A stretch of DNA of 35,608 bases from Butyrivibrio sp. Lineage in GTDB: Bacteria > Bacillota > Clostridia > Lachnospirales > Lachnospiraceae. A program made the translations under genes and the position numbers. Positions 2 through 35,608 of the stretch are shown in pieces. The stretch is taken from positions 1 to 35,608 of the forward strand of contig JAAVHB010000041.1 of assembly GCA_014799955.1 (NCBI GenBank), given 5' to 3'. How positions within the stretch are numbered: the first letter of the stretch is position 1; every line of letters starts with the position of its first letter. The notes under the pieces were generated by a model that was given only the letters and a program-made list of their open reading frames with translations, was not told where the DNA came from and searched no databases.

Positions 2-379
2 AAATGCATAGACAACGAGCTCCTGATGTTTTTTTTTTGCTTTAAAAAAAGATACCGCGAAATTTCGCTCAACGAGCCGATAGGTACTGACAAAGAGGGC
101 AACGAAATAAGCATTATCGACGTCATGGAGAGCGGCGAGAGCGATTTCCTTGACAGCTATATTTTAAAATGCGATTTGCAGGTACTCCACAGGGCGGTGG
201 AGGAGGCTCTTACGGAGCGGGAGAAAAAAATAATAATCAGGCGGTTCGGGCTTTATAACTGCCGGGAGACCACCCAGCGGGAGCTTGCCAAGGATATGAA
301 CATAAGCCGCAGCTATGTCAGCCGTATCGAAAAGAAGGCAATCGAAAAGCTGCGCGATTATTACGACAAAAATATATAA
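2..379 (+). CDS. sigK: Sporulation sigma factor SigK-type, C-terminal part (5' end outside window)
   Basis: The reading frame is open from base 2, so this is the 3' part of a longer gene with about 125 visible residues. It opens with CIDNELLM, typical of the end of sigma region 2, followed by a linker containing DKEGNEIS, which resembles SigK more than SigE. Region 4 ends in a helix-turn-helix (TQRELAKDMNISRSYVSRIE) that would contact the -35 element. The family directs late mother-cell transcription during sporulation. A run of ten T at 29-38 encodes MFFFCF where relatives usually have a residue pattern like MHLRxL. The frame and spacing are kept, so the protein is probably intact. The ATG at 26 is internal, not the start. 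Whether an intervening element interrupts the 5' part cannot be seen. Confidence 0.85.
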   Translation, partial: KCIDNELLMFFFCFKKRYREISLNEPIGTDKEGNEISIIDVMESGESDFLDSYILKCDLQVLHRAVEEALTEREKKIIIRRFGLYNCRETTQRELAKDMNISRSYVSRIEKKAIEKLRDYYDKNI

Positions 380-383
380 CTTG

Positions 384-412
384 TTGAAAAAGCTATACAA
401 TGCTGATATACT
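384..412 (+). promoter_or_regulatory. Sigma-A-type promoter candidate for the glycosyltransferase
   Basis: TTGAAA (384-389) is separated by 17 bp from TATACT (407-412), directly after the sigK stop. A small hairpin (AGCCAA/TTGGCT, 420-437) follows in the leader, and a Shine-Dalgarno-like ACGGAG lies at 458-463, before the ATG at 473. Called from the consensus match only. Confidence 0.5.
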
Positions 413-472
413 GTTGCTTAGCCAAGGGGATTTGGCTGGTGTAAGATTTGATTATTTACGGAGTATTATGAT

Positions 473-1246
473 ATGGCGGTTAAAACACTGTCGGTAATTA
501 TACCGACCTTTAACGAAGCGGACAATATAAAAAAGCTTCTTGATGAAATTGATGCGGCGCTGCAAAAGGTGCCCTATGAAATAATTTTTGTGGACGACAG
601 CACGGATTCCACTCCCGAACTTCTTGCCGATATTGCGCGGCTTGACAGGCGGGTAAGATTTGAGCACAGGGAAAATAAAAGCGGACTTGCGACGGCGGTG
701 CTGCGCGGATTTGAGCTTGCGTCGGGAGATTATATCGCGGTTATGGACGCGGATTTGCAGCATCCGCCGATAGCGCTTCGGTATATGTAATGCGCTATGC
801 GAAGGGGCGCCGACATATGTATTCCCAGCAGGTTTATTCCGGGCGGGAGCGACGGCGGACTTGATTTTTACAGAAAATTCGTATCGGGCACCGCAAGATA
901 CATAGGCAAAATTTTTCTTCGCTGTATCCGGCGGATTTCGGACCCCACAAGCGGGCTTTTCATGTTCAGGCGCAGTATCCTCAATGACGCGTATTTGCGT
1001 CCAATCGGCTGGAAAATACTGATTGAGGTGCTTGCGATGTGCGATTACTCCAAGGTTACGGAGGTTCCGTATACCTTTTGCAGCCGCAACGCAGGAGAGT
1101 CCAAGCTTTCAAAAAAAGTGACGCTCGAATATTTACGGCAGATTTTTAATCTGATACCCAGAGCAAAACGGAACCGCGCAAACGTCGTCAAATGGTCTCC
1201 GGCGCGCCTTGAGCTGGAATTGCGGGAATTAAATTCACGTCTTTAG
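473..1246 (+). pseudogene. GT2 polyprenol-phosphate glycosyltransferase, interrupted by an in-frame TAA
   Basis: This is a GT-A family 2 glycosyltransferase of the dolichol/polyprenyl-phosphate mannose synthase type, which transfers a sugar from a nucleotide donor to a lipid phosphate carrier at the membrane. The N-terminus shows IIPTFNEADNI, VDDSTDSTPELL and the catalytic DADLQHPP. The C-terminal half has SRF, GWKILIEVL and the family sequence VPYTFCSRNAGESKLS. One TAA at 788-790 breaks the frame shortly after HPP. Both halves are in the same frame, and the HPP to GAD distance equals that of intact relatives when the stop counts as one residue. This is therefore a nonsense change, not a frameshift. 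An ATG at 797 lacks a ribosome binding site. Readthrough or a sequencing error remain possible. The next genes are LCP envelope proteins, suggesting a cell-surface polymer role. Confidence 0.8.
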
Positions 1247-12496: not shown

Positions 12497-14359
12497 TTAC
12501 GGAGCGATGTCCGCTAAAAAGTCGTCGATATGCCCGTAATCGTAGGTTTTATTTCTGTATGTGATTTTAATATTTTCACAGCCTTGGAAAGCGCTTTCCG
12601 AAACGTATGATACTCCGTCGGGAAGCGTTATCTCCGAAAGGCTGATACAATCCATAAACGCCTCGTCGTCTATTTCCTGGAGCGTGTCGGGCAGCGTGAT
12701 GCTTTTTAAGTCAGCGCAGCCGCAGAAGGCGTCGTCGTATATTTCATCAACGCCGTCGGGAATAACGATGCTTTCCAGACTTGTACAGTTTATGAAGGTG
12801 CCTATTCCGATATCCGTAAGGCTTCCGCCTGCGAAGGTTACATCCTTAAGGCTTGTGCAATTTTCAAAGGTACGTTCCATAATTAACACATTCTCCGGAA
12901 TGAAAATGCTTTCCAGACTTGTGCAGCCGCAGAAGGTTTCGTACAGAGTTTCCGCGCTTTCGGGAAGAGTGATTTGGGTAAGGCTGACGCATTCGCAGAA
13001 CGTATAGTCAAAGTCGCGCTCGCCTTCGGGGAGATTAACGCTCTCAAGGCTTGGGCAGTCTTCAAACATATCCATACCGATACTGACAACGCTGTCGGGA
13101 AGACGGACGGTTTTCAGTTCGGGCAGATACGCGAAAAGAGAGGAACCCAATGAAGTTATACCGTCGGATAGGTTGATTTCTATGATATCGTTGGATTTGT
13201 CGAACTCGTAGAAAACAAAGTAGCCGTCCTCACCGTGCCCCATTTCCAACACGGGTTTCCCGTCAATTTCGGACGGGACAGTCAGATATTGATCGCTGCC
13301 GGTATATTTTGTTATCTTTATTCCGCCTTCAATTTCCACATACTCATAATCCCCGGGAACGGGTATCGGTCTGTTGTCCGGAAATGTCTCAGAAGGCGAG
13401 AAAACCGCAGTCGGACCGTCAGTGCCCGCCGGGCTGTCGCTTCCTGCCGGATTGACAGTGCCTGCCATACTGTCTGTGTCCGTCGGTTTCTGTGCCGTAA
13501 AACCGGGCGTGCCGCTTTCGGCGGGGCGCTTGCCGGAGTTGTTTGCTATGATTACTCCCGCGGTAACTCCGCCTCCCACAATTGCCGCAGCGCACACTCC
13601 CGCGATGATTTTTGCTTTAAGTGAATTTAACATTGCCTTTCCTCCTGTTTTGGCGGCTGCCGCCGCAGATTTGGAGGGAACCTTTAAAGAATCGGGAGGG
13701 GTTTTTGTTATAACAGACAAATGGGGCACCGAAATGTTTTCCGCTTCAAGCCTCAGTAACTGCGTCAGGAATGCAATCGGAACGAGAGAGTGCAGCTTGT
13801 CGCGGTTTTTTTCTTCATACCGCGTAACTTCTTCTTTGATTTTAAGACGCGCGGTTTTCAGGCGGTAGAGTACGGTTTTTTCGTGACAGTCCATAAGCGC
13901 GGAAATCTCGGCGGCGGTCATCTCATCAAAATAGTACAGGATAATTGTTCGGTACTGTTCCTCGGAGAGCGAGTTTTTTAGGATGTTCATAATGAGCCTG
14001 CGCTTTGCCGTATCCGTGACGTATTCCTCGGGAAGGAATTTGTCGTCGGGGATATTTTCCAGAATTTCCTCGCTGTTTTCTTCCGATGCTTTGTTTGCCG
14101 TACTGTTTATGTAGTTTTTACATTTGTTGGCGGCGATTTTATTCAGCCATCGCCGGATGGCGGCGGGCTCTTCAAGCGTGTTAAGCTTCTCAAATGCCGT
14201 AAGATATGTGTCCTGCATAATGTCCTTGGCGTTTTCTTCGTTCTTAAGAAGACTGACGCAGGTATACCATACGCCGTTTTTGGTCCGCTCATAAAGGCTG
14301 TCAAACGCCTTTCGGTCGCCGCTTGCCGCTCTTTTGACAAGTTCGGTGATATCGTTCAT
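12497..14359 (-). CDS. ECF-like sigma factor fused by one membrane helix to an extracellular BspA-type leucine-rich repeat domain
   Basis: A single 620-aa frame. Residues about 8-75 are sigma-70 region 2 (NAKDIMQDTYLTAFEKL, IRRWLNKIAANKC). Residues about 125-178 are region 4 with a helix-turn-helix (MTAAEISALMDCHEKTVLYR). Residues 179-248 are a linker and 249-272 one membrane helix preceded by KAK, which predicts an inside-to-outside orientation. Residues 273-335 are a Pro/Thr/Ser/Gly-rich spacer, and about 340-600 are BspA-type (LRR_5) repeats of the form AFxGCxSLxSIxLPxxV. The start ATG follows GGAGGAAAA. It is the last gene of a minus-strand run after the hydrogenase and MFS genes. The layout suggests a membrane-tethered sigma factor, perhaps released by proteolysis when the surface domain binds a ligand; that mechanism is inference. 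No separate anti-sigma gene is adjacent. Confidence 0.88.
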   Translation of the reverse strand: MNDITELVKRAASGDRKAFDSLYERTKNGVWYTCVSLLKNEENAKDIMQDTYLTAFEKLNTLEEPAAIRRWLNKIAANKCKNYINSTANKASEENSEEILENIPDDKFLPEEYVTDTAKRRLIMNILKNSLSEEQYRTIILYYFDEMTAAEISALMDCHEKTVLYRLKTARLKIKEEVTRYEEKNRDKLHSLVPIAFLTQLLRLEAENISVPHLSVITKTPPDSLKVPSKSAAAAAKTGGKAMLNSLKAKIIAGVCAAAIVGGGVTAGVIIANNSGKRPAESGTPGFTAQKPTDTDSMAGTVNPAGSDSPAGTDGPTAVFSPSETFPDNRPIPVPGDYEYVEIEGGIKITKYTGSDQYLTVPSEIDGKPVLEMGHGEDGYFVFYEFDKSNDIIEINLSDGITSLGSSLFAYLPELKTVRLPDSVVSIGMDMFEDCPSLESVNLPEGERDFDYTFCECVSLTQITLPESAETLYETFCGCTSLESIFIPENVLIMERTFENCTSLKDVTFAGGSLTDIGIGTFINCTSLESIVIPDGVDEIYDDAFCGCADLKSITLPDTLQEIDDEAFMDCISLSEITLPDGVSYVSESAFQGCENIKITYRNKTYDYGHIDDFLADIAP

Positions 14360-24040: not shown

Positions 24041-24875
24041 GCTTTTGCGTGATATGTTTCATTATGAGTTTATGACCAGGGCGCTTACGGTCGGAATTCT
24101 GGTGTCCTTATGCGCCTCTCTTCTCGGCGTGAGCATGGTTTTAAAAAGATACTCCATGATAGGCGACGGGCTTTCACACGTCGGTTTCGCGGCGATGGCG
24201 GGAGCCGCCGCGTGCGGGATTGCGCCGCTTTGGGCGGCGATTCCGGTCTGCATCGTCTCGGCAATTCTGATGCTCAAAATCAGTGAGAGGAGCAGGCTTA
24301 AGGGCGATGCCTCTACGGCAATCGTGTGCAGCGGCGCGCTCGCAATCGGCGTTATGGTTATATCGCTTTCGTCGGGAATGAATACGGACGTCAACAATTA
24401 TATGTTCGGAAGTATTCTTTCCTTAAGCGCTCAGGACGCCCTGATAAGCCGTGTGCTTTCGGCAGTCGTGATAATCGTTTTTATGATATTTTACAACAGG
24501 ATTTTTGCGGTGACCTTTGACGAAACATTTGCGAGAGCGACGGGCGCGAGAGCCGGAGCTTACAATACGGTTCTGGCTGTACTCACCGCCGTTACGGTGG
24601 TAATCGGAATGCGTATGATGGGCGCGCTCCTCATATCGAGCCTTGTTATTTTTCCGAGCCTGTCAGCAATGCGCGTATGTAAAAGATACCGCAGCGTCAT
24701 CATATGCTCGGTGATTATTTCCGTGCTCTGCTTTATCGCGGGCATAACACTGTCCTTTGCCAAATCCACACCCGCTGGCGCGAGCGTTGTTTGCGCAAAT
24801 CTTGCGGTGTTCGCGTTGTTTGCGGTGTTCGGGGCGGTGAAAAAGAAGATAAAAATTAAGGAGAAAGTACAATGA
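24024..24875 (+). CDS. znuB: Zinc ABC transporter membrane permease
   Basis: 283 aa with about eight hydrophobic helices in the ABC-3 family. SMIGDGLSHVGFAAMAGA near the N-terminus is the typical loop, and later segments include FDETFARATGARAGAYN and MRMMGALLISSLVIFPS. The start at 24024 follows GGGGAGGG closely; an ATG at 24033 is the alternative. It overlaps znuC by 17 nt and the PfkB-NUDIX gene by 4 nt. Confidence 0.92.
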   Translation: MKKMLELLRDMFHYEFMTRALTVGILVSLCASLLGVSMVLKRYSMIGDGLSHVGFAAMAGAAACGIAPLWAAIPVCIVSAILMLKISERSRLKGDASTAIVCSGALAIGVMVISLSSGMNTDVNNYMFGSILSLSAQDALISRVLSAVVIIVFMIFYNRIFAVTFDETFARATGARAGAYNTVLAVLTAVTVVIGMRMMGALLISSLVIFPSLSAMRVCKRYRSVIICSVIISVLCFIAGITLSFAKSTPAGASVVCANLAVFALFAVFGAVKKKIKIKEKVQ

Positions 24876-26218
24876 ACGGATTTGACATTTACTGCTACGG
24901 AATGATAGTTGTTTCTCACAGCTTTTTGCTGTCAGGAGAATTTTTAAAGCCCGACGAATACTCGGAGCTTGCCGCCGCCTACCGTTTTCCGGGCGGCGAG
25001 ACGGGAACCTGCGCAACGGTGCTGGCTTCGCTCGGAGCGGACGTAAAAATTGACGGCACTCATATCGGAGGCGCTTCGGAGAGCTTTGTAAGGGAATTTT
25101 ATGAAGGAAAGACGGTGCGCCTTGATTCGCTGTGCTTTGACAGGGACTTTGAGGGGCTTGAGGATTATGTTGTAGTGCACGGCGATACAAGAACGCCGAT
25201 GGGGCGATTCGGCGCTTTTTTTGCGAATGCGTGGAAGACCGGAGTAAGGCATTGGAACAAGCCGAAGGAGGCGGACATAGCCGCCTGTAAGGTCGCCGCG
25301 ATAGATTCGTTCTTTTGGGACGATTCCGATTCGGCTGCCGAATACTGCATAAAGCTGGGGAAGCCCTATGTCACAATCGACTGCAAATACGACAGCTTCA
25401 TACATAAGCACGCTGCCGTTTCCGTTATTTCGGGAGAGAGCATTCAGAACAATTATCCGGAAAAAACAAGGGATGAGCTATTTGAATTATACCGTGACGG
25501 CAGCGACGAGCTTACAATAATCACGAACGGGGGCGGGGAACTCATATACGGCAGAAGGGGAGAAAAAATGCGCCGCTTCACACCGTACAAGGTTAAGGCG
25601 GCGGGAACGCTGGGCGCGGGCGATACCTTCAAGGCGGGCTGTGCTTACGCGCTGCTTAAAAATATGCCTGACGAGGAGCTTGTAAGCTTTGCAAGCGCGT
25701 GCGCGGCAACGGCGATTTCGCGATATCCGCTTCAGCTTGACCCGCCGAGGCTTGGCGAGGTAAAGGCGCTTATCGAAAGTCAGAAAACAAAGGTGAATTT
25801 CTATGACAGCGTGGACGATTCGCTCCTGAAATTTGCGGTAATCATTTCGAAGCACGACGGAAAATATGTTTTCTGCAAGCACAAGGAACGTTCAACCTTG
25901 GAGGTTCCGGGAGGACACAGGGAGGCGGGCGAGGCAATTCTTGAAACCGCCAAAAGAGAGCTTTACGAGGAAACGGGCGCAGTTGATTTTGATTTGAAGC
26001 AAATCTGCGTATACTCGGTTATTGCAAAGGGGAATTTTGACGGGCAGGAAACCTTCGGAATGCTTTGTTTTGCCGATATAAAGGAATTTGAGCCGGAACT
26101 GCACAGTGAGATAGAAAGGATTGTTATAACGGAGGAATTGCCGGAGAGATGGACATATCCGGACATACAGCCGAGGCTTATGGAGGAGGCGGCGAGAAGG
26201 GGATTTATTGAGAGGTAA
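24872..26218 (+). CDS. PfkB-family carbohydrate kinase fused to a NUDIX hydrolase
   Basis: 448 aa in one frame. Residues 1 to about 310 are a ribokinase/PfkB fold: YRFPGGETGTCATVLASLGA near the start and the C-terminal signature GTLGAGDTFKAG with the catalytic Asp. Residues about 318-448 are a NUDIX domain with a complete Nudix box: G, then E, then RELYEETGA (from 349 to about 371). The kinase would phosphorylate a sugar or nucleoside, and the NUDIX part would hydrolyse a nucleoside diphosphate-linked compound. A shared pathway, for instance nucleotide repair or salvage, is plausible, but no substrate can be named. It is the last gene of the zinc operon (ATGA overlap with znuB), a surprising place for it. 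Confidence 0.87.
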   Translation: MNGFDIYCYGMIVVSHSFLLSGEFLKPDEYSELAAAYRFPGGETGTCATVLASLGADVKIDGTHIGGASESFVREFYEGKTVRLDSLCFDRDFEGLEDYVVVHGDTRTPMGRFGAFFANAWKTGVRHWNKPKEADIAACKVAAIDSFFWDDSDSAAEYCIKLGKPYVTIDCKYDSFIHKHAAVSVISGESIQNNYPEKTRDELFELYRDGSDELTIITNGGGELIYGRRGEKMRRFTPYKVKAAGTLGAGDTFKAGCAYALLKNMPDEELVSFASACAATAISRYPLQLDPPRLGEVKALIESQKTKVNFYDSVDDSLLKFAVIISKHDGKYVFCKHKERSTLEVPGGHREAGEAILETAKRELYEETGAVDFDLKQICVYSVIAKGNFDGQETFGMLCFADIKEFEPELHSEIERIVITEELPERWTYPDIQPRLMEEAARRGFIER

Positions 26219-27458: not shown

Positions 27459-28172
27459 ATGAATATTGCAATTTGTGATGATGACATCAATGCGCTTAAA
27501 ATATTAAAGCGTTTAATCGAAAAGAGAAGTGATATTTCCGCGGCAGATTATTACAACAGGATAGAACAGTTCTGGGATGCGGCGGTATATGAACGAAATT
27601 ATGATGTCGTACTGATGGATATTGATTGGAACGGAAGTCAGATGGGTATCGAGTTTGCCAACAGACTTCTTAAAGAAAACATAAACACTCAGATTATTTA
27701 TGTCACTGGGTATAACGACAAATTTGCGCAGGAGATTTTTCTTACTCCGGCAAATCTGTGTGGGTATCTGGTTAAACCTGTTGAGAAAAAAATGTTGAAC
27801 GCTATGTTAGGACTGGCTTTGGAGGCGATAAATAAAACTCATATTCAAAAGCTTGTTATAAGAAGACGGGACGGGATTTATGCAATTCCGTATTCCGATA
27901 TTTTATGGCTGTCAAGCGAGTTGCACAAAGTAATTGTTCATTGCAGGGAGGTACAATACAGCTATAACGGAACTTTGAATGAATTAAAGGAGGTTCTTCC
28001 GGAAAACTTTGCGGAGTGTCACAAATCATTTTGGATAAACATGAATTTTATTAAGCATATTAATAAAACGGAACTTGAACTGCTTAACGGAGCAAGTATT
28101 CCTGTAAGCCGGTCGAAGTACCATGTTTTTATGGAAAATTATATGCAGTATATAGGGCGGATAATTAAATAA
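27459..28172 (+). CDS. LytTR-family response regulator (canonical receiver)
   Basis: 237 aa. Residues 1-120 are a receiver domain with the acidic pocket CDDD (6-9), the phosphoacceptor Asp54 in VVLMDIDWNG, and Lys in YLVKPVE. Residues about 140-237 are a LytTR DNA-binding domain (VIRRRDGIYAIPYSDILWLS, CHKSFWINMNFIKHI, IPVSRSKYHVF). This is the AgrA/VirR type, which binds pairs of 9-bp direct repeats. The ATG at 27459 is chosen because the in-frame codons upstream overlap the promoter. It is the first gene of an apparent five-gene operon and would receive phosphate from the kinase system encoded downstream. Confidence 0.9.
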   Translation: MNIAICDDDINALKILKRLIEKRSDISAADYYNRIEQFWDAAVYERNYDVVLMDIDWNGSQMGIEFANRLLKENINTQIIYVTGYNDKFAQEIFLTPANLCGYLVKPVEKKMLNAMLGLALEAINKTHIQKLVIRRRDGIYAIPYSDILWLSSELHKVIVHCREVQYSYNGTLNELKEVLPENFAECHKSFWINMNFIKHINKTELELLNGASIPVSRSKYHVFMENYMQYIGRIIK

Positions 28173-28191: not shown

Positions 28192-29478
28192 ATGTTTGAA
28201 ACATTGGAATACATATTGGTTGCGACAAAGTCATTGTGCATTATCGCGATGATATCTATTGGATTAACTGGTAGATGGAAGAGATTGACAAGCCGTCTCA
28301 TTTCCGCGTTTGGTGCAGTAATAATGCTGACTGTTTTATATTTATTTCTTCATAAATTGTGCGGAATCGGATATCGATTTTCATGTGTTGCGGCATTCTC
28401 AGTTTTGACAGTATTATACGGAATTTTATGTTTTGAAGATGATATAAAGCAAAGGCTTATATTTTTGTTGATGGTCATTTTGTTGAGCACTGCTTGTACA
28501 TATGTGAGTAACGCAGTATTTTTTATTTACTCAGGTCATAGCGATTTTTTACAAAATACCGAAAGTGTGTTAGGCGAGATTGCTGTGATAGCGACTGAAA
28601 TCAATAAACAGCTTATTGTAATCGGAAGCTTTGTTATTCTGTGGAACAGGCTTTACAGACATCAAAAAACTGTAAAATATATTGCCGTTTATCTGATTTT
28701 TCCGATGAGCCAGTTTGTAACCTTGTTTTTCCTGAACGGAGAGAAGGCGTACAGGCATCTTTTCGGAAATGCGGTAAGTGTCATCGGTGTGCTGATTGGT
28801 TATATAGCCGATATTGTTTTGTATTATATGCTTTTAAACCAGGAGCATAAAAAAGAATTAAAAAACAGACTTGAGGAAACAAAGAGGGTACAGGAAATTG
28901 AAAAAGCTCATTTTGACGCCGTTGAGGCAGGTAGATTGGAAATAGAAAGGCTGAGCCGTGATTTTGACAGGCAGCTGACGGAAATTATAGACAATATTGA
29001 GAACGGTAAAAAGGAGAAAGCGGATATTATGTTCAATCAGTTGAAAATGGATGTGTCCGCTACCAGGGAATGCCAGTATTGCTCCAACGCGGTGGTGAAC
29101 GCCGTTCTTACAGACAAGGAAAAGCAGGCAAGACTTAATTCTATTAATATGGATATAAATTTGACGGTAAGGCAGGAGATTTCGATATCGGCGATGCATC
29201 TGTGCAGCGTTTTTTCAAATCTGCTGGATAACGCAATCCACGCGACAGCCGTTTATGATGGGGAAAGGACTATACATATAAACGCCGGATATGCCGGAGA
29301 CTATTTTTTTGTAAATGTTGAGAACAAGTGCACCAAGCCCGCCGGAAAATCCGTTCGCAAAGGGCATGGCTACGGGCTGAAAATACTTGACGATATAGCA
29401 AGACAGTATGACGGAAAGTTTAATCACAGTTGGCAGGAGGAAATTTACACGGCGCGTATCATGCTTACGGTATACTGA
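28192..29478 (+). CDS. GHKL sensor histidine kinase with intact ATPase domain but no phosphoacceptor His (Arg256)
   Basis: 428 aa. Six or seven hydrophobic helices fill residues 8-216, then a coiled coil (about 218-250) and a dimerisation-type helix. The H-box reads LSRDFDRQL (254-262), where the AgrC/HPK10 family has LRHDYxNxL, so Arg256 (codon CGT, 28957-28959) replaces the phosphorylated His. The next His upstream (240) is not in H-box position. The ATPase domain is complete: CSNAVVNAVLTDKEKQA, N-box FSNLLDNAIHA (342-352) and G-box GHGYGLKILDDIA (391-403). It could bind ATP but could not autophosphorylate in the normal way. It lies 19 nt after the regulator and 11 nt before the first acceptor-like protein. 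It may be a catalytic chain acting on partners, or a pseudokinase. Confidence 0.88.
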   Translation: MFETLEYILVATKSLCIIAMISIGLTGRWKRLTSRLISAFGAVIMLTVLYLFLHKLCGIGYRFSCVAAFSVLTVLYGILCFEDDIKQRLIFLLMVILLSTACTYVSNAVFFIYSGHSDFLQNTESVLGEIAVIATEINKQLIVIGSFVILWNRLYRHQKTVKYIAVYLIFPMSQFVTLFFLNGEKAYRHLFGNAVSVIGVLIGYIADIVLYYMLLNQEHKKELKNRLEETKRVQEIEKAHFDAVEAGRLEIERLSRDFDRQLTEIIDNIENGKKEKADIMFNQLKMDVSATRECQYCSNAVVNAVLTDKEKQARLNSINMDINLTVRQEISISAMHLCSVFSNLLDNAIHATAVYDGERTIHINAGYAGDYFFVNVENKCTKPAGKSVRKGHGYGLKILDDIARQYDGKFNHSWQEEIYTARIMLTVY

Positions 29479-29489
29479 GGGAGGTAAAA

Positions 29490-30365
29490 ATGTATTTCTG
29501 GCTGTATTATGCGGTATGGATATTGCAGGCATATGTTCTTGCACTTTATGTGGATAGTGTGCTTACTTTGAGGATAAGAATAAACAAATATCTTGCGGCT
29601 TTTTTATGCACTGTGTTTTATATGATTACATCATATTTTAAACTGAGGACGTCAGGTACTGATATGCACCCCGGATATCATCTTGCCAATGTTGCGGGTA
29701 TACTTGGAATTATTTATTATATTGTGCTCATGCATAGGGACCGTATGAGGAATAAAATAATATGCATTGTTATGTATTACGCATTAATGTTTTTGTCAGC
29801 CTCAGTGATGTCTTTATTGATTTATGAAAAGGACAGCAGCTTTATTGTAGATTTTGACAGTATTATTGATTGGGAAAAGTTCGCGGTTACGAATATGGCT
29901 TCCGTGGTATTTATTATATTTGGTACGATTTTATACAATTTTTACATAAACAAAAGATTGATAAAAAAAATAAACTTCGGAATGTGTATTCTGGCTGTAA
30001 GCCAGATTATAACGCTGAAATTTCTATGGTCGGCGGAGTTTATAGAGAATTATATGGCGGTCAACATTATAAGCATGGTGGGATTATTTATCGGATATTT
30101 GTCGGATATATTGCTTTTTTTCATTATTGAGAGCGAAAGTGAGCAGGAAAATTTACAGCGTGAGATACGGACTGTCAGGCAGGCAATGGAGCTTGAGAGC
30201 ATCCGATACGAGGTTCTTTGCGAAAAACGACAGGAGCTTGCGAAGCTGCGTCATGATTACAATAATCAGCTTGTTGTTGTGCAGCTTCTGTTAGATGGCG
30301 GTAACGAGAAGGAGGCACAAGATATAATAAGCGGTCTTAGAAGTCTGGTGAACACAGGAAAATAG
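29490..30365 (+). CDS. Membrane sensor with His-containing H-box but no ATPase domain (acceptor-like half kinase, copy 1)
   Basis: 291 aa from the ATG at 29490, which follows GAGGGAGG. Five to six hydrophobic helices occupy residues 1-213, then a coiled coil. At the C-terminus is ELAKLRHDYNNQLVVVQLLL, a perfect HPK10/SpoOB-type H-box with His255. After the turn (DGGNEKEA) and second helix the protein ends at residue 291, before the segment where the ATPase domain would begin. It is clearly paralogous to the protein at 30644: both begin MYFW, share SYFKL and VDFDS, and end at the same place. Truncation of both at the same point argues for a real architecture, not decay. It may be phosphorylated by the upstream kinase or act as a phosphotransferase like Spo0B. 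Confidence 0.85.
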   Translation: MYFWLYYAVWILQAYVLALYVDSVLTLRIRINKYLAAFLCTVFYMITSYFKLRTSGTDMHPGYHLANVAGILGIIYYIVLMHRDRMRNKIICIVMYYALMFLSASVMSLLIYEKDSSFIVDFDSIIDWEKFAVTNMASVVFIIFGTILYNFYINKRLIKKINFGMCILAVSQIITLKFLWSAEFIENYMAVNIISMVGLFIGYLSDILLFFIIESESEQENLQREIRTVRQAMELESIRYEVLCEKRQELAKLRHDYNNQLVVVQLLLDGGNEKEAQDIISGLRSLVNTGK

Positions 30366-30380
30366 GTGAGGTTTAAAATA

Positions 30381-30644
30381 ATGGTTGATAATATCGTGAT
30401 AATTGGCGCAGTCGCCCTTATAATCGGGGTAGTTCTGCTTGTCATACTTGAAATTTCGGTGAACAGAAGGAAACTGTTATATGCTTTGCCGGCTATGGTT
30501 GGTACGATATTGATTTTTGTCGGGCTGTATCTTACGGATGCTCCGTCGTGGAGAAATATAGCTATAGGCGCTTTTGCCATAGGTACGCTTGGAGTGCTTG
30601 TCAGCGTATTCCTGCTGATATTTTTTTCAAGGAGGAGTAGATAA
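30381..30644 (+). CDS. Small membrane protein of unknown function
   Basis: 87 aa from the ATG at 30381 with AGGTGAGG upstream; an in-frame GTG at 30366 is the alternative. Three hydrophobic helices (VIIGAVALIIGVVLLVILE, a middle one around ALPAMVGTILIFVGLYL, and GTLGVLVSVFLLIFF) are separated by short charged loops, and the C-terminus is FSRRSR. I do not recognise the family. It lies 15 nt after the first acceptor-like sensor, and its TAA shares a base with the ATG of the second. It is therefore translationally coupled inside the operon and may be an accessory or signal-related subunit. Confidence 0.7.
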   Translation: MVDNIVIIGAVALIIGVVLLVILEISVNRRKLLYALPAMVGTILIFVGLYLTDAPSWRNIAIGAFAIGTLGVLVSVFLLIFFSRRSR

Positions 30645-31525
30645 TGTATTTTTGGCAGTGCTATGCGGTTTGGATGCTGCAGGCATATATGATAGGAGCG
30701 TCTATTGAAATGCTGCTTACTCCGCGCATAAAAAGGAATAAATGGCTTTGCGCGCTTTTTTTTGCGTCAGTATATGCGATACCCTCGTATTTTAAACTGG
30801 CAACCACGGGAACGGATAATCAGATTTTGTATCAGATTTCAAATATGGTCGGTTTCTTTTGGGCTCCTGTTTATATATTCTTTGGGTATAGAGACAAAGC
30901 TAAAGAAAAACTGCTGTGCTTTGCTGTAATGTTGATTAGCATGTTTATTACCTATTGGCTGTTCACACAAATAATTAAATTGAATAATATCGGAAATTTT
31001 TTTGTCGATTTTGACAGTGCCGTTTATTTCAGGGAATTTCTGATTGTAAACGGTTTCCAGACTGTTACGCTGTTTTTTTTCGCGTTTTTGGTTAAGGCTT
31101 ATATTAATAAAGATAGTATAAAAAAGCACAGTCTGCGATTGAGTCTTTTTGCGTTAAGCCAGCTTATTGTTTTGTATTTTTTAACATCCCTAAGTTCACT
31201 GCCGGATTACCCGTATGTAAATATGACCAGTTCATACGGTGTTTTCGGCGGATATATGGCAGATTTAATACTTATTTTTATAATGGACAGGCAGAGTGAG
31301 CAGGAGACGGTACGCCGTGAGCTGCGAATGCTGCAAAAAAAGATGGAGCTGGATAAGATTCAATATGAAGCATTGCAGCTAAGGCGTCAGGAGCTTGCAA
31401 AGCTGCGACACGATTATAATAATCAGCTGATTGTGGTACAATTGCTGCTGGAAAGCGGAAACGAAAGAGAGGCGTATGAAATATCTTTCGGACTGAAAAA
31501 ACATCTGGAAAATAGTACGTTATAA
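30644..31525 (+). CDS. Membrane sensor with His-containing H-box but no ATPase domain (acceptor-like half kinase, copy 2)
   Basis: 293 aa. The start ATG (30644) follows AAGGAGGAG and overlaps the previous stop by one base. It has the same layout as the 29490 protein: hydrophobic helices to about residue 215, a coiled coil, then ELAKLRHDYNNQLIVVQLLL with His256 (codon CAC, 31409-31411), a turn (ESGNEREA) and a final helix ending at residue 293. No N-box, G-box or other ATPase motif is present, and a terminator begins immediately after the stop, so no ATPase domain follows. The membrane part differs from copy 1 far more than the H-box does, which suggests the two sense different inputs or form a heteromer. 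Confidence 0.85.
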   Translation: MYFWQCYAVWMLQAYMIGASIEMLLTPRIKRNKWLCALFFASVYAIPSYFKLATTGTDNQILYQISNMVGFFWAPVYIFFGYRDKAKEKLLCFAVMLISMFITYWLFTQIIKLNNIGNFFVDFDSAVYFREFLIVNGFQTVTLFFFAFLVKAYINKDSIKKHSLRLSLFALSQLIVLYFLTSLSSLPDYPYVNMTSSYGVFGGYMADLILIFIMDRQSEQETVRRELRMLQKKMELDKIQYEALQLRRQELAKLRHDYNNQLIVVQLLLESGNEREAYEISFGLKKHLENSTL

Positions 31526-31560
31526 AACCCCACTCCATTGAGGGTGGGTTTTTTGTCTTT
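31524..31560 (+). terminator. Intrinsic terminator of the split-kinase operon
   Basis: An AAAACCCCACTC left arm pairs with GAGGGTGGGTTTT (one bulge) and is followed by TTTTTGTCTTTTT-like sequence. It separates the five-gene operon from the second regulator. Confidence 0.8.
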
Positions 31561-31666
31561 TTATTTCATAAAATACAAATTCTGCTGTTAATTCTGCAAA
31601 TTCTGCGTATAAAACCAACTATGGAAAATATGATGATATTATATTCGCAAATAATTCGGAATGATA

Positions 31667-31694
31667 TTTCGTGTCGAAAAAGCACCGTTTTGTG
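31667..31694 (+). promoter_or_regulatory. Candidate LytTR binding site, upstream of the second regulator
   Basis: TTTCGTG (31667-31673) and TTTTGTG (31688-31694) are direct repeats offset by 21 bp, two helical turns. The context ATTTCGTG-12 nt-CGTTTTGTGA is repeated with identical spacing before the secretion ATPase gene. A further TTTGTGA lies at 31707. Confidence 0.6.
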
Positions 31695-31767
31695 AATGCT
31701 TTTGCATTTGTGAAAAGAAATATGCTTCAATTTGTTTAATGACTATGAATTATTACAAGAGATATCA

Positions 31768-32466
31768 ATGAAGATTTTAGTATGTGACAGTGACAGAGAG
31801 TTTTGTGAATCATTTATCAACAAAATATATTCGTATGGCGGCGAAGACATTGTGAAGCCTTTTAATAACGCCTTTGCACTGGTCACATATATATGTGATG
31901 TGGCGAGGGGAGATGTGGATGTCCTTTACATTAACATTAGGCTGGGTACGGACAGCGGGGTAGAGGTCGCTTCTGACTTACAGTGTCTATATCCCAGTCT
32001 TAAAGTTATCTTTATGTCGGAGCAAAATGATTGCGCGGATTTGATATTCGCTGCCAACCCAAGCTTTTTTATTTTAAAGTATGGCGATGAAGTCTGGATG
32101 GAGGAAGCCTACAGGAGAGTGACGCTTTTGGTAAATGAGGATTTACACAGAATGCTGACAGTCAGATATAAGGGTAATGTTATTAAAATTCCGTTTAACA
32201 AAATATATTATATGGAGAATTCGGGTCATAAAATTATTTTTTATACGGAAGATTCAAGCTATGAGAGTATTTTGAACATGAATTCATTGCTTAAACTTTT
32301 GCCGGCACAATTTATACAATGCCACAGAAGCTATGTTGTGAATATAGATAAAATTAAGATGATGAATGCTGATAGACTTGAGCTTATGAACATGGCAGAG
32401 ATACCGTTATCGAAAACATATTACAGAAATGTGAAAGCGGTTCTTTATTCAGAGGGCATTTTATGA
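31768..32466 (+). CDS. LytTR-family regulator with atypical receiver (Asn56 replaces phosphoacceptor Asp)
   Basis: 232 aa from the ATG at 31768; an in-frame TTG at 31732 is less likely. The receiver keeps the acidic pair (CDSD) but has Asn56 (codon AAC, 31933-31935) in DVLYINIRLG where Asp is required, and KYG instead of KP. It is thus unlikely to be phosphorylated. Residues about 130-232 are a full LytTR domain (LTVRYKGNVIKIPFNKIYYME, CHRSYVVNIDKIKMM, IPLSKTYYRNV). It lies between the split-kinase operon and the type VII ATPase, 130 nt from the latter, with a shared candidate site in front of both. It probably regulates its own gene and the secretion locus by a phosphorylation-independent route. 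Confidence 0.87.
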   Translation: MKILVCDSDREFCESFINKIYSYGGEDIVKPFNNAFALVTYICDVARGDVDVLYINIRLGTDSGVEVASDLQCLYPSLKVIFMSEQNDCADLIFAANPSFFILKYGDEVWMEEAYRRVTLLVNEDLHRMLTVRYKGNVIKIPFNKIYYMENSGHKIIFYTEDSSYESILNMNSLLKLLPAQFIQCHRSYVVNIDKIKMMNADRLELMNMAEIPLSKTYYRNVKAVLYSEGIL

Positions 32467-32477
32467 ATGTGAAAGCA

Positions 32478-32505
32478 TTTCGTGAACTGAAAAGGTCGTT
32501 TTGTG
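32478..32505 (+). promoter_or_regulatory. Candidate LytTR binding site, upstream of the type VII secretion ATPase
   Basis: TTTCGTG (32478-32484) and TTTTGTG (32499-32505), again offset by 21 bp and embedded in ATTTCGTG-12 nt-CGTTTTGTGA. It lies about 90 bp before the start codon, a typical position for an activator site. Confidence 0.6.
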
Positions 32506-32595: not shown

Positions 32596-35500
32596 ATGAT
32601 AATTACACTTTTTCAAATGGGAAAACTATACAGTATAAGACTTCCTGAAAACATAAAGGGTCGTTATTGGATTATTAATCATGATGCAGGAATTATTCAG
32701 GATAAGAAAATTGCAGATATAGAAGCTGTTGACTGTAAATGGGTAATAAAAAGCGACAGAAAATTTAAAGTAATGAATTCTGAAACAGGGAGCGTTGTAA
32801 AATCGGTTACTTTATATGAAAGAAGACTTTATCCGGTGCAGATTGGCAAAAACAGCACCGATAGAAGCTGTATTTTCACCGAACCGTTTACTAAAGACAG
32901 AAGCTCGTTTGCCAAATATTATATTAATAATTCTATAAGAAATTGCAGCTTAAATATAGGGAAAGAATCGACAAATGACATTGTATTTGATGATAAATAT
33001 GTATCATCATCTCATGCACTGTTGTCGTACAGCAAAAATAAGTGGCATATAAGGGATACGGGAAGCAGCAATGGGACATACGTAAATAACAGACTTATAA
33101 CAAAAGATACGGAGCTTTCAGTTGGAGATATTGTATTTATAATGGGATTTAAACTTGTAATAGGAGGGGACTTTATAGCTGTTAATAATCCTGATGGCAG
33201 AGTTTCGGTATGCACTGATATCTTAAAGCCGTACAATATGCCGCACAAGGAATCCGATATAGACCATGATGAAGCTAAACATAGATATTATTACCGTTCT
33301 CCTGCGTTCAGGAGAGAGATAGAGCCCCTTAAATTGTCTGTTGATATGCCTACACAGGAGCAGGCTCTTTCAGGAACGCCTCTGATTCTTACTATAGGAC
33401 CGGCACTGATAATGGGCTGTGCATCTCTTTCGACAGGGCTGATGACAGCTATGAATACATTACGGGGAGGCGGAAGCTTTATCAGTACGCTTCCTACTCT
33501 GATTACGTCAGTTACCATGCTGAGCGGAATGGTGATGTTTCCCGCTATAGTAAGGCAGCGGGATAAGAGAGCGATATGCGACGCCGAAAAAGAACGGCAG
33601 GACAGGTATATGAAATATCTTGATAATATCAGATATGAAATATCAAAAGCCTCGCTTAAGCAGCGTGAGATATTGAATGAAAATTACAGAGAAATTTTGC
33701 CGCTTGTAAAAACGGAAGATTTTTGGGAGAGAAAGCTTTGGAGCAGAATAATAGGACAATTGGATTTTCTTACGATAAGAGTTGGAAACGGAAATGTTCC
33801 GCTTTTGGCAGAACTGAAATTTCCTGACAGCAGATTCAGCATAGATGATGATGTTATGAGGGATAAGCTTACGGAACTAAAGGAAGAAGAAAAGATTCTT
33901 GAAAGTGTGCCTGTGACATATTCTCTTATTGAGCATAGGGTAAGCGGAATAGTTGGCGACAGAGCGCATGTGGCCGGGCTTCTTAATAATATCATAATAC
34001 AGCTTGCCGCGCTTCACAGCTATGATGAAATTAAAATTGTCTTCATCTGTGATGAAAGTGAGATGCCGTATTTTAATTATATAAGATGGATTCCTCATAT
34101 GTGGAATGACGACAGGAATGTGAGATATATCGCAACAACACCTGATGAGGTCAGAGAGCTTTCAATACATCTGAAGAAGATTTTAAATCATGCGGCAGAA
34201 GCGGAAGGTAAAGCAGCGCCTAAAGTATATTATGTAGTTATTGCAGTCAGCAAGGAACTGACCGAACAGTGCAGCGCAATATCCGAAATATTGGCATTAA
34301 ACGAAAATAAAGGCTTTTGTGTAATAACGGCTTATGATGAATTAAAGAATCTTCCTAAGGAATGTTCAATGGTAACCAGTCTGAGCGACGGGCAGGGAAT
34401 GATGTACAACAGAAATTCATTGTCAGGGGATCGGATTAATTTTGTTCAGGATTATACGGATTATAAGCAGAGTGAGAGTGTAGTTATGAAGCTGGCGGGA
34501 TATGAGCTTGACCTGCAAAAGGGTAAGTATGCTCTTCCGGAAATGCTTACTTTTCTTGATATGTTTAATGTGGGAAAGATAGAGCATTTGAATATCGCCA
34601 ACCGATGGAGAGAAAACAATCCGGTAAAGTCGTTACAGACGCCTGTCGGAGTAAATACGGACGGCAAAACCTTTTATCTTGATCTGCATGAAAAGGCTCA
34701 CGGACCGCATGGACTTGTAGCAGGTATGACCGGATCCGGAAAAAGTGAATTTATAATAACCTATATACTTTCTCTTGCGGTCAATTTTCATCCGAATGAG
34801 GTCTCATTTTTGCTGATAGACTATAAGGGCGGCGGACTTGTCAAAACCTTTGACAATAATAATTACAAACTTCCGCATCTTGTGGGGACAATAACAAATT
34901 TGGACGGTGCGGCTATAAATCGTTCTCTTATGTCTATTCAAAGTGAACTTAAAAGGCGTCAGGATATTTTTAACGAAGCGAAGATTATATCCAACTCAGA
35001 ATCAATGGATATTTATAAATATCAGAAGCTGTATAGGCGCGGAATACTTACGGAGCCGGTTCCTCATCTTCTGATAATATCAGATGAGTTTGCAGAGCTT
35101 AAAACACAGCAGCCCGAATTTATGGCGCAGCTCATCAGTACGGCTAGAATTGGCCGAAGTCTTGGCGTGCATCTTATACTTGCTACGCAGAAACCGAGCG
35201 GAGTGGTCAACGACCAGATATGGGCGAATTCAAAATTTAAGGTATGTCTTAAGGTTCAGGATAAAGCGGACAGTATGGATATGCTCAAGAGACCGGATGC
35301 GGCTGAGATAAGCGAAACGGGAAGGTTTTTCTTACAGGTGGGATATAATGAGCTGTTTGAAAAGGGGCAGTCTGCATGGTGCGGCGCACAGTATGAGCCG
35401 ACTGATACCGTGTCCGAGGAGAACGGTATATCCGTAAGAATGCTGGACAACCTCGGAAATACACTTGAGGAAGGCAGAGTAAAGAAAAAGGTTGAGGAGG

Positions 35501-35608
35501 GAGAGTATGGCGCACAAGTTGCGGAGATCATCAAATATATTACAGAACTCGCAGAAGAAGAAAATGCGTATGCAAAGCCGCTGTGGCTGCCTACTATACC
35601 GGAAATTA
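32596..35608 (+). CDS. essC: Type VIIb secretion ATPase EssC/YukB (FHA-FtsK/SpoIIIE), 3' end outside window
   Basis: Open from the ATG at 32596 to the window end, about 1004 codons. Residues 1-100 are a beta-rich domain without a clear FHA signature. About 105-190 are an FHA domain with IGKESTNDIVF, SSSHA and GSSNGTYVNN, which binds phosphothreonine. About 258-318 hold two membrane helices. About 640 onward is the first FtsK/SpoIIIE ATPase: Walker A AGMTGSGKSEF (near 710), LLIDYKGGG, Walker B HLLIISDEFAEL, then LGVHLILATQKPSGVVNDQI. This order is diagnostic for EssC, the motor that exports WXG100 and LXG proteins in Bacillota. Later ATPase modules lie outside. The start has AAAAGGA 12 nt upstream. 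EsxA, EssB and effectors would be expected downstream. Confidence 0.93.
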   Translation, partial: MIITLFQMGKLYSIRLPENIKGRYWIINHDAGIIQDKKIADIEAVDCKWVIKSDRKFKVMNSETGSVVKSVTLYERRLYPVQIGKNSTDRSCIFTEPFTKDRSSFAKYYINNSIRNCSLNIGKESTNDIVFDDKYVSSSHALLSYSKNKWHIRDTGSSNGTYVNNRLITKDTELSVGDIVFIMGFKLVIGGDFIAVNNPDGRVSVCTDILKPYNMPHKESDIDHDEAKHRYYYRSPAFRREIEPLKLSVDMPTQEQALSGTPLILTIGPALIMGCASLSTGLMTAMNTLRGGGSFISTLPTLITSVTMLSGMVMFPAIVRQRDKRAICDAEKERQDRYMKYLDNIRYEISKASLKQREILNENYREILPLVKTEDFWERKLWSRIIGQLDFLTIRVGNGNVPLLAELKFPDSRFSIDDDVMRDKLTELKEEEKILESVPVTYSLIEHRVSGIVGDRAHVAGLLNNIIIQLAALHSYDEIKIVFICDESEMPYFNYIRWIPHMWNDDRNVRYIATTPDEVRELSIHLKKILNHAAEAEGKAAPKVYYVVIAVSKELTEQCSAISEILALNENKGFCVITAYDELKNLPKECSMVTSLSDGQGMMYNRNSLSGDRINFVQDYTDYKQSESVVMKLAGYELDLQKGKYALPEMLTFLDMFNVGKIEHLNIANRWRENNPVKSLQTPVGVNTDGKTFYLDLHEKAHGPHGLVAGMTGSGKSEFIITYILSLAVNFHPNEVSFLLIDYKGGGLVKTFDNNNYKLPHLVGTITNLDGAAINRSLMSIQSELKRRQDIFNEAKIISNSESMDIYKYQKLYRRGILTEPVPHLLIISDEFAELKTQQPEFMAQLISTARIGRSLGVHLILATQKPSGVVNDQIWANSKFKVCLKVQDKADSMDMLKRPDAAEISETGRFFLQVGYNELFEKGQSAWCGAQYEPTDTVSEENGISVRMLDNLGNTLEEGRVKKKVEEGEYGAQVAEIIKYITELAEEENAYAKPLWLPTIPEI

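Follow-up and report, generated by a model that had tools for sequence, protein, structure and literature searches.

Organization of the operon

The window analyzed here, that is, the whole 35,608-nucleotide stretch of DNA from Butyrivibrio sp. (contig C41 of a 2.78-Mb genome that is 96% complete), carries an operon in which the ATPase domain and the phospho-acceptor histidine of a histidine kinase lie on separate adjacent genes. The gene order is LytTR response regulator (RR1), kinase, membrane protein partner A, small membrane protein and partner C. A terminator-like hairpin comes next, then the genes for a second LytTR regulator (RR2) and essC; a divergent Fic gene was identified upstream by Pfam scan. 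From 5' to 3', the genes of the operon are separated by 19, 11 and 0 nt and finally overlap by 1 nt, in agreement with a preliminary description of this DNA, which had recognized one tight operon. The open reading frames (ORFs) that it had placed at 28192..31525 are as stated, but the operon starts one gene earlier, with the LytTR regulator at 27459.

RR1 (27459..28172, + strand), the first gene of the operon, matched the Pfam domains LytTR (3.3e-21) and Response_reg (4.3e-13), and its phospho-acceptor Asp54 (VVLMDI) is intact. The kinase (28192..29478, +; 428 amino acids, aa) consists of a membrane domain, a degenerate DHp hairpin and an intact GHKL ATPase. Partner A (29490..30365, +; 291 aa) and its paralogue partner C (30644..31525, +; 293 aa, 44% identity) are membrane proteins that carry the H-box hairpin RHDYNNQL (H255 and H256, respectively) at the C-terminus and have no ATPase domain. 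The small membrane protein (30366..30644, +; 92 aa, GTG start) showed no Pfam or NCBIfam match above the cut-off; it lies between the partners in the window and after them in a congener (G003), where an 87-aa counterpart was recognized by eye. The operon ends at a hairpin followed by a T run (31529..31548, +), which was identified as a consensus match; the region contains five terminator-like sites, where shuffled sequences would lead one to expect 3.7.

Complementary domains of the kinase and its partners

The kinase scored 7.1e-14 against HATPase_c_5, above the Pfam cut-off, and its N-box (NLLDNA) and G-box (GHGYG) are complete, whereas alignment placed R256 in the H-box column. In partners A and C, the chain ends 36-37 residues past H255/H256, where an ATPase domain would start. 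When 30201-31800 was searched in all six frames, the two H-box segments scored 50.3 and 43.3 bits and everything else 0.3 bits or less, so that no remnant of an ATPase was found near the partners. The complementary defects reported in the preliminary description, namely a kinase with Arg256 beside a complete ATPase and two RHDYNNQL paralogues that stop before one, are thus real, and they proved to be conserved across species and recurrent, as described below.

We also compared both chains with known structures. The AlphaFold2 model of the kinase, built from a 56-row alignment (predicted local distance difference test score 85.2; predicted template modelling score, pTM, 0.59), contains DHp helices at 194-270 and 274-291 and the ATPase at about 300-426. 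The closest fold found by Foldseek in the PDB was the kinase module of AgrC. Superposition of the ATPase part on AgrC 4bxi gave 2.4 A, whereas the whole chain gave a root-mean-square deviation of 11.3 A against AgrC 6e52, so that the superposition is good for the ATPase part only. The best PDB match of a profile of the kinase set, composed mostly of His-bearing relatives, was AgrC chain 6e52 at residues 122-225 (1.5e-5), and that of the partner profile was the same chain at residues 18-69, a weak match (0.0054). By these profile matches, the kinase and its partners appear to cover complementary parts of AgrC, as two pieces of one AgrC would. This likeness is drawn from the profile and fold matches; HPK10 is the family to which we take the kinase to belong.

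The partners scored 16.3 and 14.2 bits against SPOB_a (0.0077 and 0.034), below its cut-off of 28.1, and the hairpins of all six partners scanned remained below the Pfam hairpin cut-off. The partners escape annotation, those scanned scoring below the cut-offs of both Pfam and NCBIfam, and two of the partner homologues bear the name hypothetical protein.

Conservation in relatives

The seven nearest kinase clusters all lack the H-box His, having R (P0005, P0007, P0009), L (P0006), N (P0008) or C (P0010, P0011) in its place. Among the partner matches, two clusters end as the window partners do (P0001, 98% identity, and P0003, 39%, each 293 aa); of the remainder, P0002 is a 165-aa protein without an H-box and P0004 lacks its start. 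In G003, one contig carries Fic, a response regulator, a His-less kinase and the first part of a partner, and another carries two partners, a small membrane protein, RR2, EssC, YukD and two WXG100 proteins; the contigs are presumed to follow each other in this order. The kinases of the two species are intact ORFs with 61% identity.

The preliminary description had also considered that an intact His might be the norm among homologues, or that the partners had lost their ATPase in this strain only. Neither was found: most members of the clade do not have the His, and truncation of the partners is not limited to this strain. A strain-specific mutation of the His is ruled out by the seven clusters together with the same genes in G003, and a strain-specific truncation of the partners by the equal length of P0001 and P0003.

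Next, we examined 120 kinase homologues. The His column holds another residue in 51 of them (8 long and 43 short, <310 aa) and HD in 64, while four have a His without a following acid and one is unaligned; both N-box Asn residues are present in 120 of 120. The mean entropy of the H-box was 2.02 bits in the 51 His-less sequences and 0.52 in the 64 His-bearing ones, whereas the corresponding values were 0.37 and 0.67 for the N-box and 1.01 and 1.56 for the G-box. Hairpin columns 40, 44 and 48 are nonpolar or aromatic in all 51 His-less sequences, whereas columns 42 (His), 43 (Asp) and 46 (Asn) vary. Therefore, the motifs for catalysis and the positions at which the helices pack have been kept and the phosphotransfer surface has been lost. 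The partners show the opposite, with no variation at the His or at the Asn in position +4 (11 of 11 aligned).

Recurrence in other genomes

The genome search proposed in the preliminary description, for an Arg-H-box kinase beside ATPase-less RHDYNNQL proteins, was run on overlapping sets of 397 genomes of the family (with a His-less kinase profile and a partner profile), 392 of the order and 391 of the class, in addition to an earlier pass over 116 relatives and one scan of named genomes. We defined a split locus as a kinase with an N-box but without an HDxxN H-box, paired with H-box genes that lack an ATPase. At least 16 such loci were found, with one to four partners each and R, A, S, Q, N or I at the lost-His column; they span 14 coded genera plus locus L036. 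Because the match lists were best-ranked or evenly drawn samples, this number is a lower bound for those genomes. The complementary pairing is therefore not unique to the window.

Arg occupies the column in the window (two partners), G003 (at least two, on two contigs), G293 (four) and G772, which belongs to another family (one partner; a low-complexity insert in the ATPase). Gln is found in G297, G317, G158:C1 and G152, each with two partners, one of them broken in G152, and in both kinases of G288:C72, which have one 148-aa partner. G290 and G230 have Asn and one partner each, G439 has Ala and G270 Ser, with two partners each, and G692 has Ile and one partner. In G197, with one partner, the hairpin is unaligned; in L036, also with one, the column does hold a His, but the kinase has HQ where HD is expected and lacks the Asn.

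Several of the loci seen in this search differ in arrangement. In G293 (L104, 5321-10386), a single Arg-H-box kinase comes after four H-box partners in tandem, giving one catalytic chain and four acceptors. The ratio is reversed in G288 (L119, 101-3244), where two tandem His-less kinases accompany one small 148-aa H-box protein. In G197 (L136, 4339-5631), a flagellin-like N-terminus, judged by eye, is in frame with the GHKL ATPase, which may be a chimeric gene or a misassembly. In G935 (L188, 4531-6441), two tandem ATPase-less H-box proteins follow a LytTR-type regulator that is read in two frames. Contig G000:C54 (1-998; L031) carries a second LytTR regulator and the start of a kinase resembling the His-less P0008, paralogous to the operon; the contig ends before the hairpin.

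Coupling of His loss to the presence of a partner

We then counted how often a kinase has an ATPase-less H-box gene next to it, using a single hidden Markov model and one rule on 60 loci (30 plus 10 ranked by tool and 20 picked by hand from the match lists). With all ORFs admitted, these loci held 60 distinct ATPase-bearing kinases, of which 7 cut by the locus end were dropped, leaving 53 complete ones. Such a gene adjoined 10 of 10 His-less kinases but only 1 of 43 His-bearing ones (Fisher p=5.6e-10), the exception being in G385; the His-bearing class includes the fusion protein described below. When overlapping ORFs were filtered, a step that hid kinases under longer antisense ORFs in L138, L143, L037 and L038, the counts were 10 of 10 and 1 of 41 (p=8.6e-10). 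In the 30 tool-ranked loci of the family, cut genes included, they were 9 of 10 and 1 of 23 (p=2.5e-6), and the single miss was L051, in which the contig ends within the hairpin. Loss of the His is thus coupled to an ATPase-less H-box neighbour, which is what trans-phosphorylation between chains predicts.

We also counted from the side of the partner; since this selects on the partner, the count is descriptive and is not the test. At least 18 genomes have an open frame of <340 aa that matches the partner profile (the partner frame of G342, at 371 aa, is above this limit), and 17 of these, all but G184, were examined. A His-less kinase is the neighbour in 12 of 17 (G000, G439, G270, G293, G297, G290, G317, G230, G158, G152, G197 and G131, the last with a kinase lacking a G-box). 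The other five are G385, which has a His-bearing neighbour on C49 and whose other short match, on C32, also fits the kinase profile; G437, with no kinase near; G017, whose match is a short His-bearing kinase; G427, a broken copy; and G372, at a contig end.

Fusion family and evolutionary origin

As regards the fusion and INTERMEDIATES, G158:C3 encodes a 589-aa chain that joins both halves, in the order membrane domain, RHDFNNQL hairpin, two further membrane helices, His-less second hairpin and ATPase. A database search with this protein (L111) gave nine relatives, eight full length and one shorter, at 54-93% identity. All 10 rows retain RHDFNN, and inspection by eye showed no His in the second hairpin. 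Another arrangement is seen in L035, which lies next to a gene for EssC (TIGR03928, 1067.9 bits): a truncated H-box paralogue comes after an intact His-bearing kinase. G385 is arranged likewise, and this could plausibly be an intermediate state.

To the extent that the ATPase domain can be resolved in a tree (145 columns, 106 rows, many forks open), parsimony gave 10-11 state changes, weakly supported, and the starred branches alone force one. The approximately unbiased (AU) test rejected a single His-less clade (p=0.00017) on an 84-row subset, from which 22 His-bearing rows, long or outside the core, had been removed after the first tree was seen, and with the fusions and L036 labelled as His-less. 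This rejection suggests that the His-less kinases likely have several origins.

Downstream regulator and type VII secretion genes

RR2 (31768..32466, +) matched LytTR at 1.2e-20, while its Response_reg score of 26 bits is below the cut-off of 30.2, and Asn56 replaces the phospho-acceptor Asp (VLYINI). The Asn is also present in G003 (L030, 11895-12596), so that a conserved pseudo-receiver lies next to essC in both species; RR2 is thus probably phosphorylation-independent. The gene essC (32596..35608, +) encodes the ATPase of a type VII secretion system (T7SS) of the b type (T7SSb) and runs past the end of the window; because only part of the gene is present, its score of 746.4 bits is below the TIGR03928 cut-off of 778.4. 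In the T7SSb neighbourhood of G003, the full-length EssC scored 1014.7 bits, over the cut-off, and YukD and two WXG100 proteins were over the Pfam cut-offs.

A direct repeat, TTTYGTG-N14-TTTTGTG, with a 21-nt period precedes RR2 (31667..31694, +), and a second one precedes essC (32478..32505, +); both are exact pattern matches. In the 2.78-Mb genome, the pattern matched exactly at 31667 and 32478 only, with no one-mismatch site; since it was written from its own two sites, the informative parts are the lack of any other site and the conservation in G003. Two mismatches gave 12 more sites, close to the total for the reversed control (10). G003 has both repeats, by eye, one of them with a mismatch in the first arm. 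Pattern search and inspection found no 21-nt direct repeat before RR1. Direct repeats of this kind are typical of LytTR operators, and LytTR control of RR2 and the T7SS genes through them is therefore predicted.

Elsewhere in the window, a PfkB-family sugar kinase is fused to a NUDIX domain (24872-26218, +), and a similar ORF lies upstream of the Fic gene in G003. At 12497-14359 (-), extracytoplasmic function (ECF) sigma regions (Sigma70_r2 and r4_2) are fused to BspA-type leucine-rich repeats (LRR_5), with a hydrophobic segment, seen by eye, between the two parts.

A probable split kinase and its alternatives

We consider it likely that the operon encodes a split AgrC/HPK10-type histidine kinase, in which the ATPase chain would act on the His of a partner in a heterodimer and so feed the LytTR regulator. 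This reading is based on the coupling, the 16 loci, the selection pattern, the invariant His and Asn of the partners, the AgrC matches, the fusion and the AU test. Since the ATPase and the His are on separate chains, ATP-driven phosphorylation would have to take place between chains. Beyond this, we infer heterodimer formation, phosphotransfer, regulator specificity and T7SS control, as follows. The kinase would pair with A or C, most likely as a heterodimer, the gamma-phosphate of its ATP would be transferred to His255/256 of the partner, and the phosphate would then pass to Asp54 of RR1, which may act on the adjoining T7SS genes directly or through RR2. The HDxxN motif of the partners is predicted to serve in phosphotransfer and, when the kinase is off, in dephosphorylation of RR1. 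With two partners available, either of two heterodimers could form, which would differ in their sensor domains and have one catalytic chain in common.

Several observations weigh against this interpretation. Some of the genomes counted are related to each other, and one partner is shared by two kinases, so that the coupling events are not fully independent. For three of the seven dropped kinases (L051, L125 and L129), no hairpin could be read and no partner was seen. The G003 locus is spread over two contigs, one with the kinase and one with the H-box genes, and the partner start on the kinase side is 98 aa long, lacks an H-box and lies near the contig end. One of the four homologues with a His but no following acid, P0084, is the kinase of the split locus L036. 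The pairs in G342 and G131, outside the 16 loci, have an ATPase frame that is broken after the N-box or lacks a G-box. Partner-type genes occur in G437 with no kinase in the roughly 4.5 kb visible to either side and in G935 with none called within 11 kb, and an intact His-bearing kinase stands beside a partner-type truncated H-box gene in G385 and L035. Finally, the AlphaFold model of the fusion has a pTM of 0.47, too uncertain to indicate how its hairpins pair; its aligned spans against single kinase chains (211..589 with 6e95 and 214..587 with 8a52) led to no conclusion at this pTM.

Some of these observations would fit other explanations. The His-less protein might be a pseudokinase that modulates the system, with partners that are stand-alone phosphotransferases or regulator phosphatases of the Spo0B type, phosphorylated by other kinases. 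The faint SPOB_a similarity of the partners (0.0077 and 0.034), their retained HDxxN and the kinase-free loci of G437 and G935 would suit this. However, a pseudokinase is expected to relax both the N-box and the G-box, whereas these are at least as conserved in His-less as in His-bearing sequences, with the N-box Asn in 120 of 120, and His loss is coupled to the presence of a partner; we therefore regard this explanation as improbable. It is still less probable that the partners are truncated paralogues that titrate full-length kinases or act on them as dominant negatives, the His-less chain using another residue or phosphorylating RR1 directly. A full kinase does stand beside a truncated H-box paralogue in L035 and G385, and the window kinase has H241 upstream in the same helix, but H241 corresponds to the H of an HY pair in many His-bearing kinases and is missing in P0010 and P0011, and the residue that replaces the His is variable.

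Decay, in which unrelated degenerate genes are kept through hitchhiking, could account for the broken copies in G427, G342, G131 and one G152 partner. It is hard to reconcile with the intact kinase ORFs at 61% identity in the congener, recurrence in about 15 genera, and the conserved fusions and ATPase motifs, and we give it the least credence of all.

The split kinase may represent a general class of membrane two-component sensor that was previously undescribed, and on balance we lean towards this broader proposal, though with less assurance than for the operon itself. In such a class, one ATPase chain would serve one to four interchangeable sensor-acceptors; it would have arisen repeatedly from AgrC/HPK10 by duplication and reciprocal loss, have been fused into a single-chain heterodimer in one lineage, and govern the T7SS in Butyrivibrio-like gut bacteria through Asp- and Asn-bearing LytTR regulators with a common operator. 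Many related gut bacteria have this pairing, and sensors made from exchangeable halves may be common. If the split is widespread, it would show how a sensor can swap inputs while one catalytic chain is retained, and split pairs are natural material for the study of kinase dimer specificity.

Comparison with known systems

Among the literature matches listed (titles and starts of abstracts; most subscription journals were outside the search), there was no split HPK10/AgrC-type kinase and no LytTR system at a T7SSb locus, which accords with the preliminary description, in which no such split in the AgrC/HPK10 family was known. A term search of the main text of a T7SS survey returned neither LytTR nor histidine kinase (PMC11217815). 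The split histidine kinases in the matches listed are of the CheA type. CheA3 and CheA4 of Rhodobacter sphaeroides carry the ATPase and the phospho-His on separate proteins that are active only together (PMC3591291). This example had been cited in the preliminary description and stands, but it is not the sole described case: Hik36/Hik43 (PilL-N/PilL-C) of Synechocystis is a split histidine kinase with two-hybrid support, a split CheA homologue in a type IV pilus context (PMC7656254). The operon shares with CheA3/CheA4 the division of ATPase and phospho-His, but those proteins have the CheA domain set P1, P3, P4 and P5 and serve chemotaxis, whereas the chains here are DHp-type membrane chains. 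No CheA-type P1 (Hpt), P3 or P5 (CheW-like) domain was found among the Pfam and NCBIfam matches at E<=1, and the HATPase domain alone is in common.

Both Spo0B and ChpT retain a fold like that of the ATPase and take phosphate from a response regulator. They resemble the partners in having a His hairpin without a working ATPase, but the window partners end before any ATPase-like fold. Mutant subunits of CheA and NtrB, and of AgrC too, reportedly complement each other in the laboratory, His-less and ATPase-dead chains phosphorylating in trans; those are engineered mutants, whereas the state in the window is natural and fixed.

The operon resembles AgrC/HPK10 systems in its ATPase type (GHKL, HATPase_c_5), its polytopic membrane chain, the LytTR regulator alongside and the best PDB match of both chains. 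AgrC is one chain, whereas at the window locus the hairpin His is absent from the ATPase chain and lies on a separate gene. Splits of other kinases were foreseen in PMC3591291, because 1556 of 42417 HisKA proteins have no HATPase domain, and theory given there holds that splitting kinase and phosphatase functions can produce ultrasensitive, bistable switching. Such switching would become testable with a natural split that is widespread among ordinary membrane sensor kinases. The principle of the split is thus known, while the family, the membrane form, the number of partners and the repeated origin are without description in the literature matches listed.

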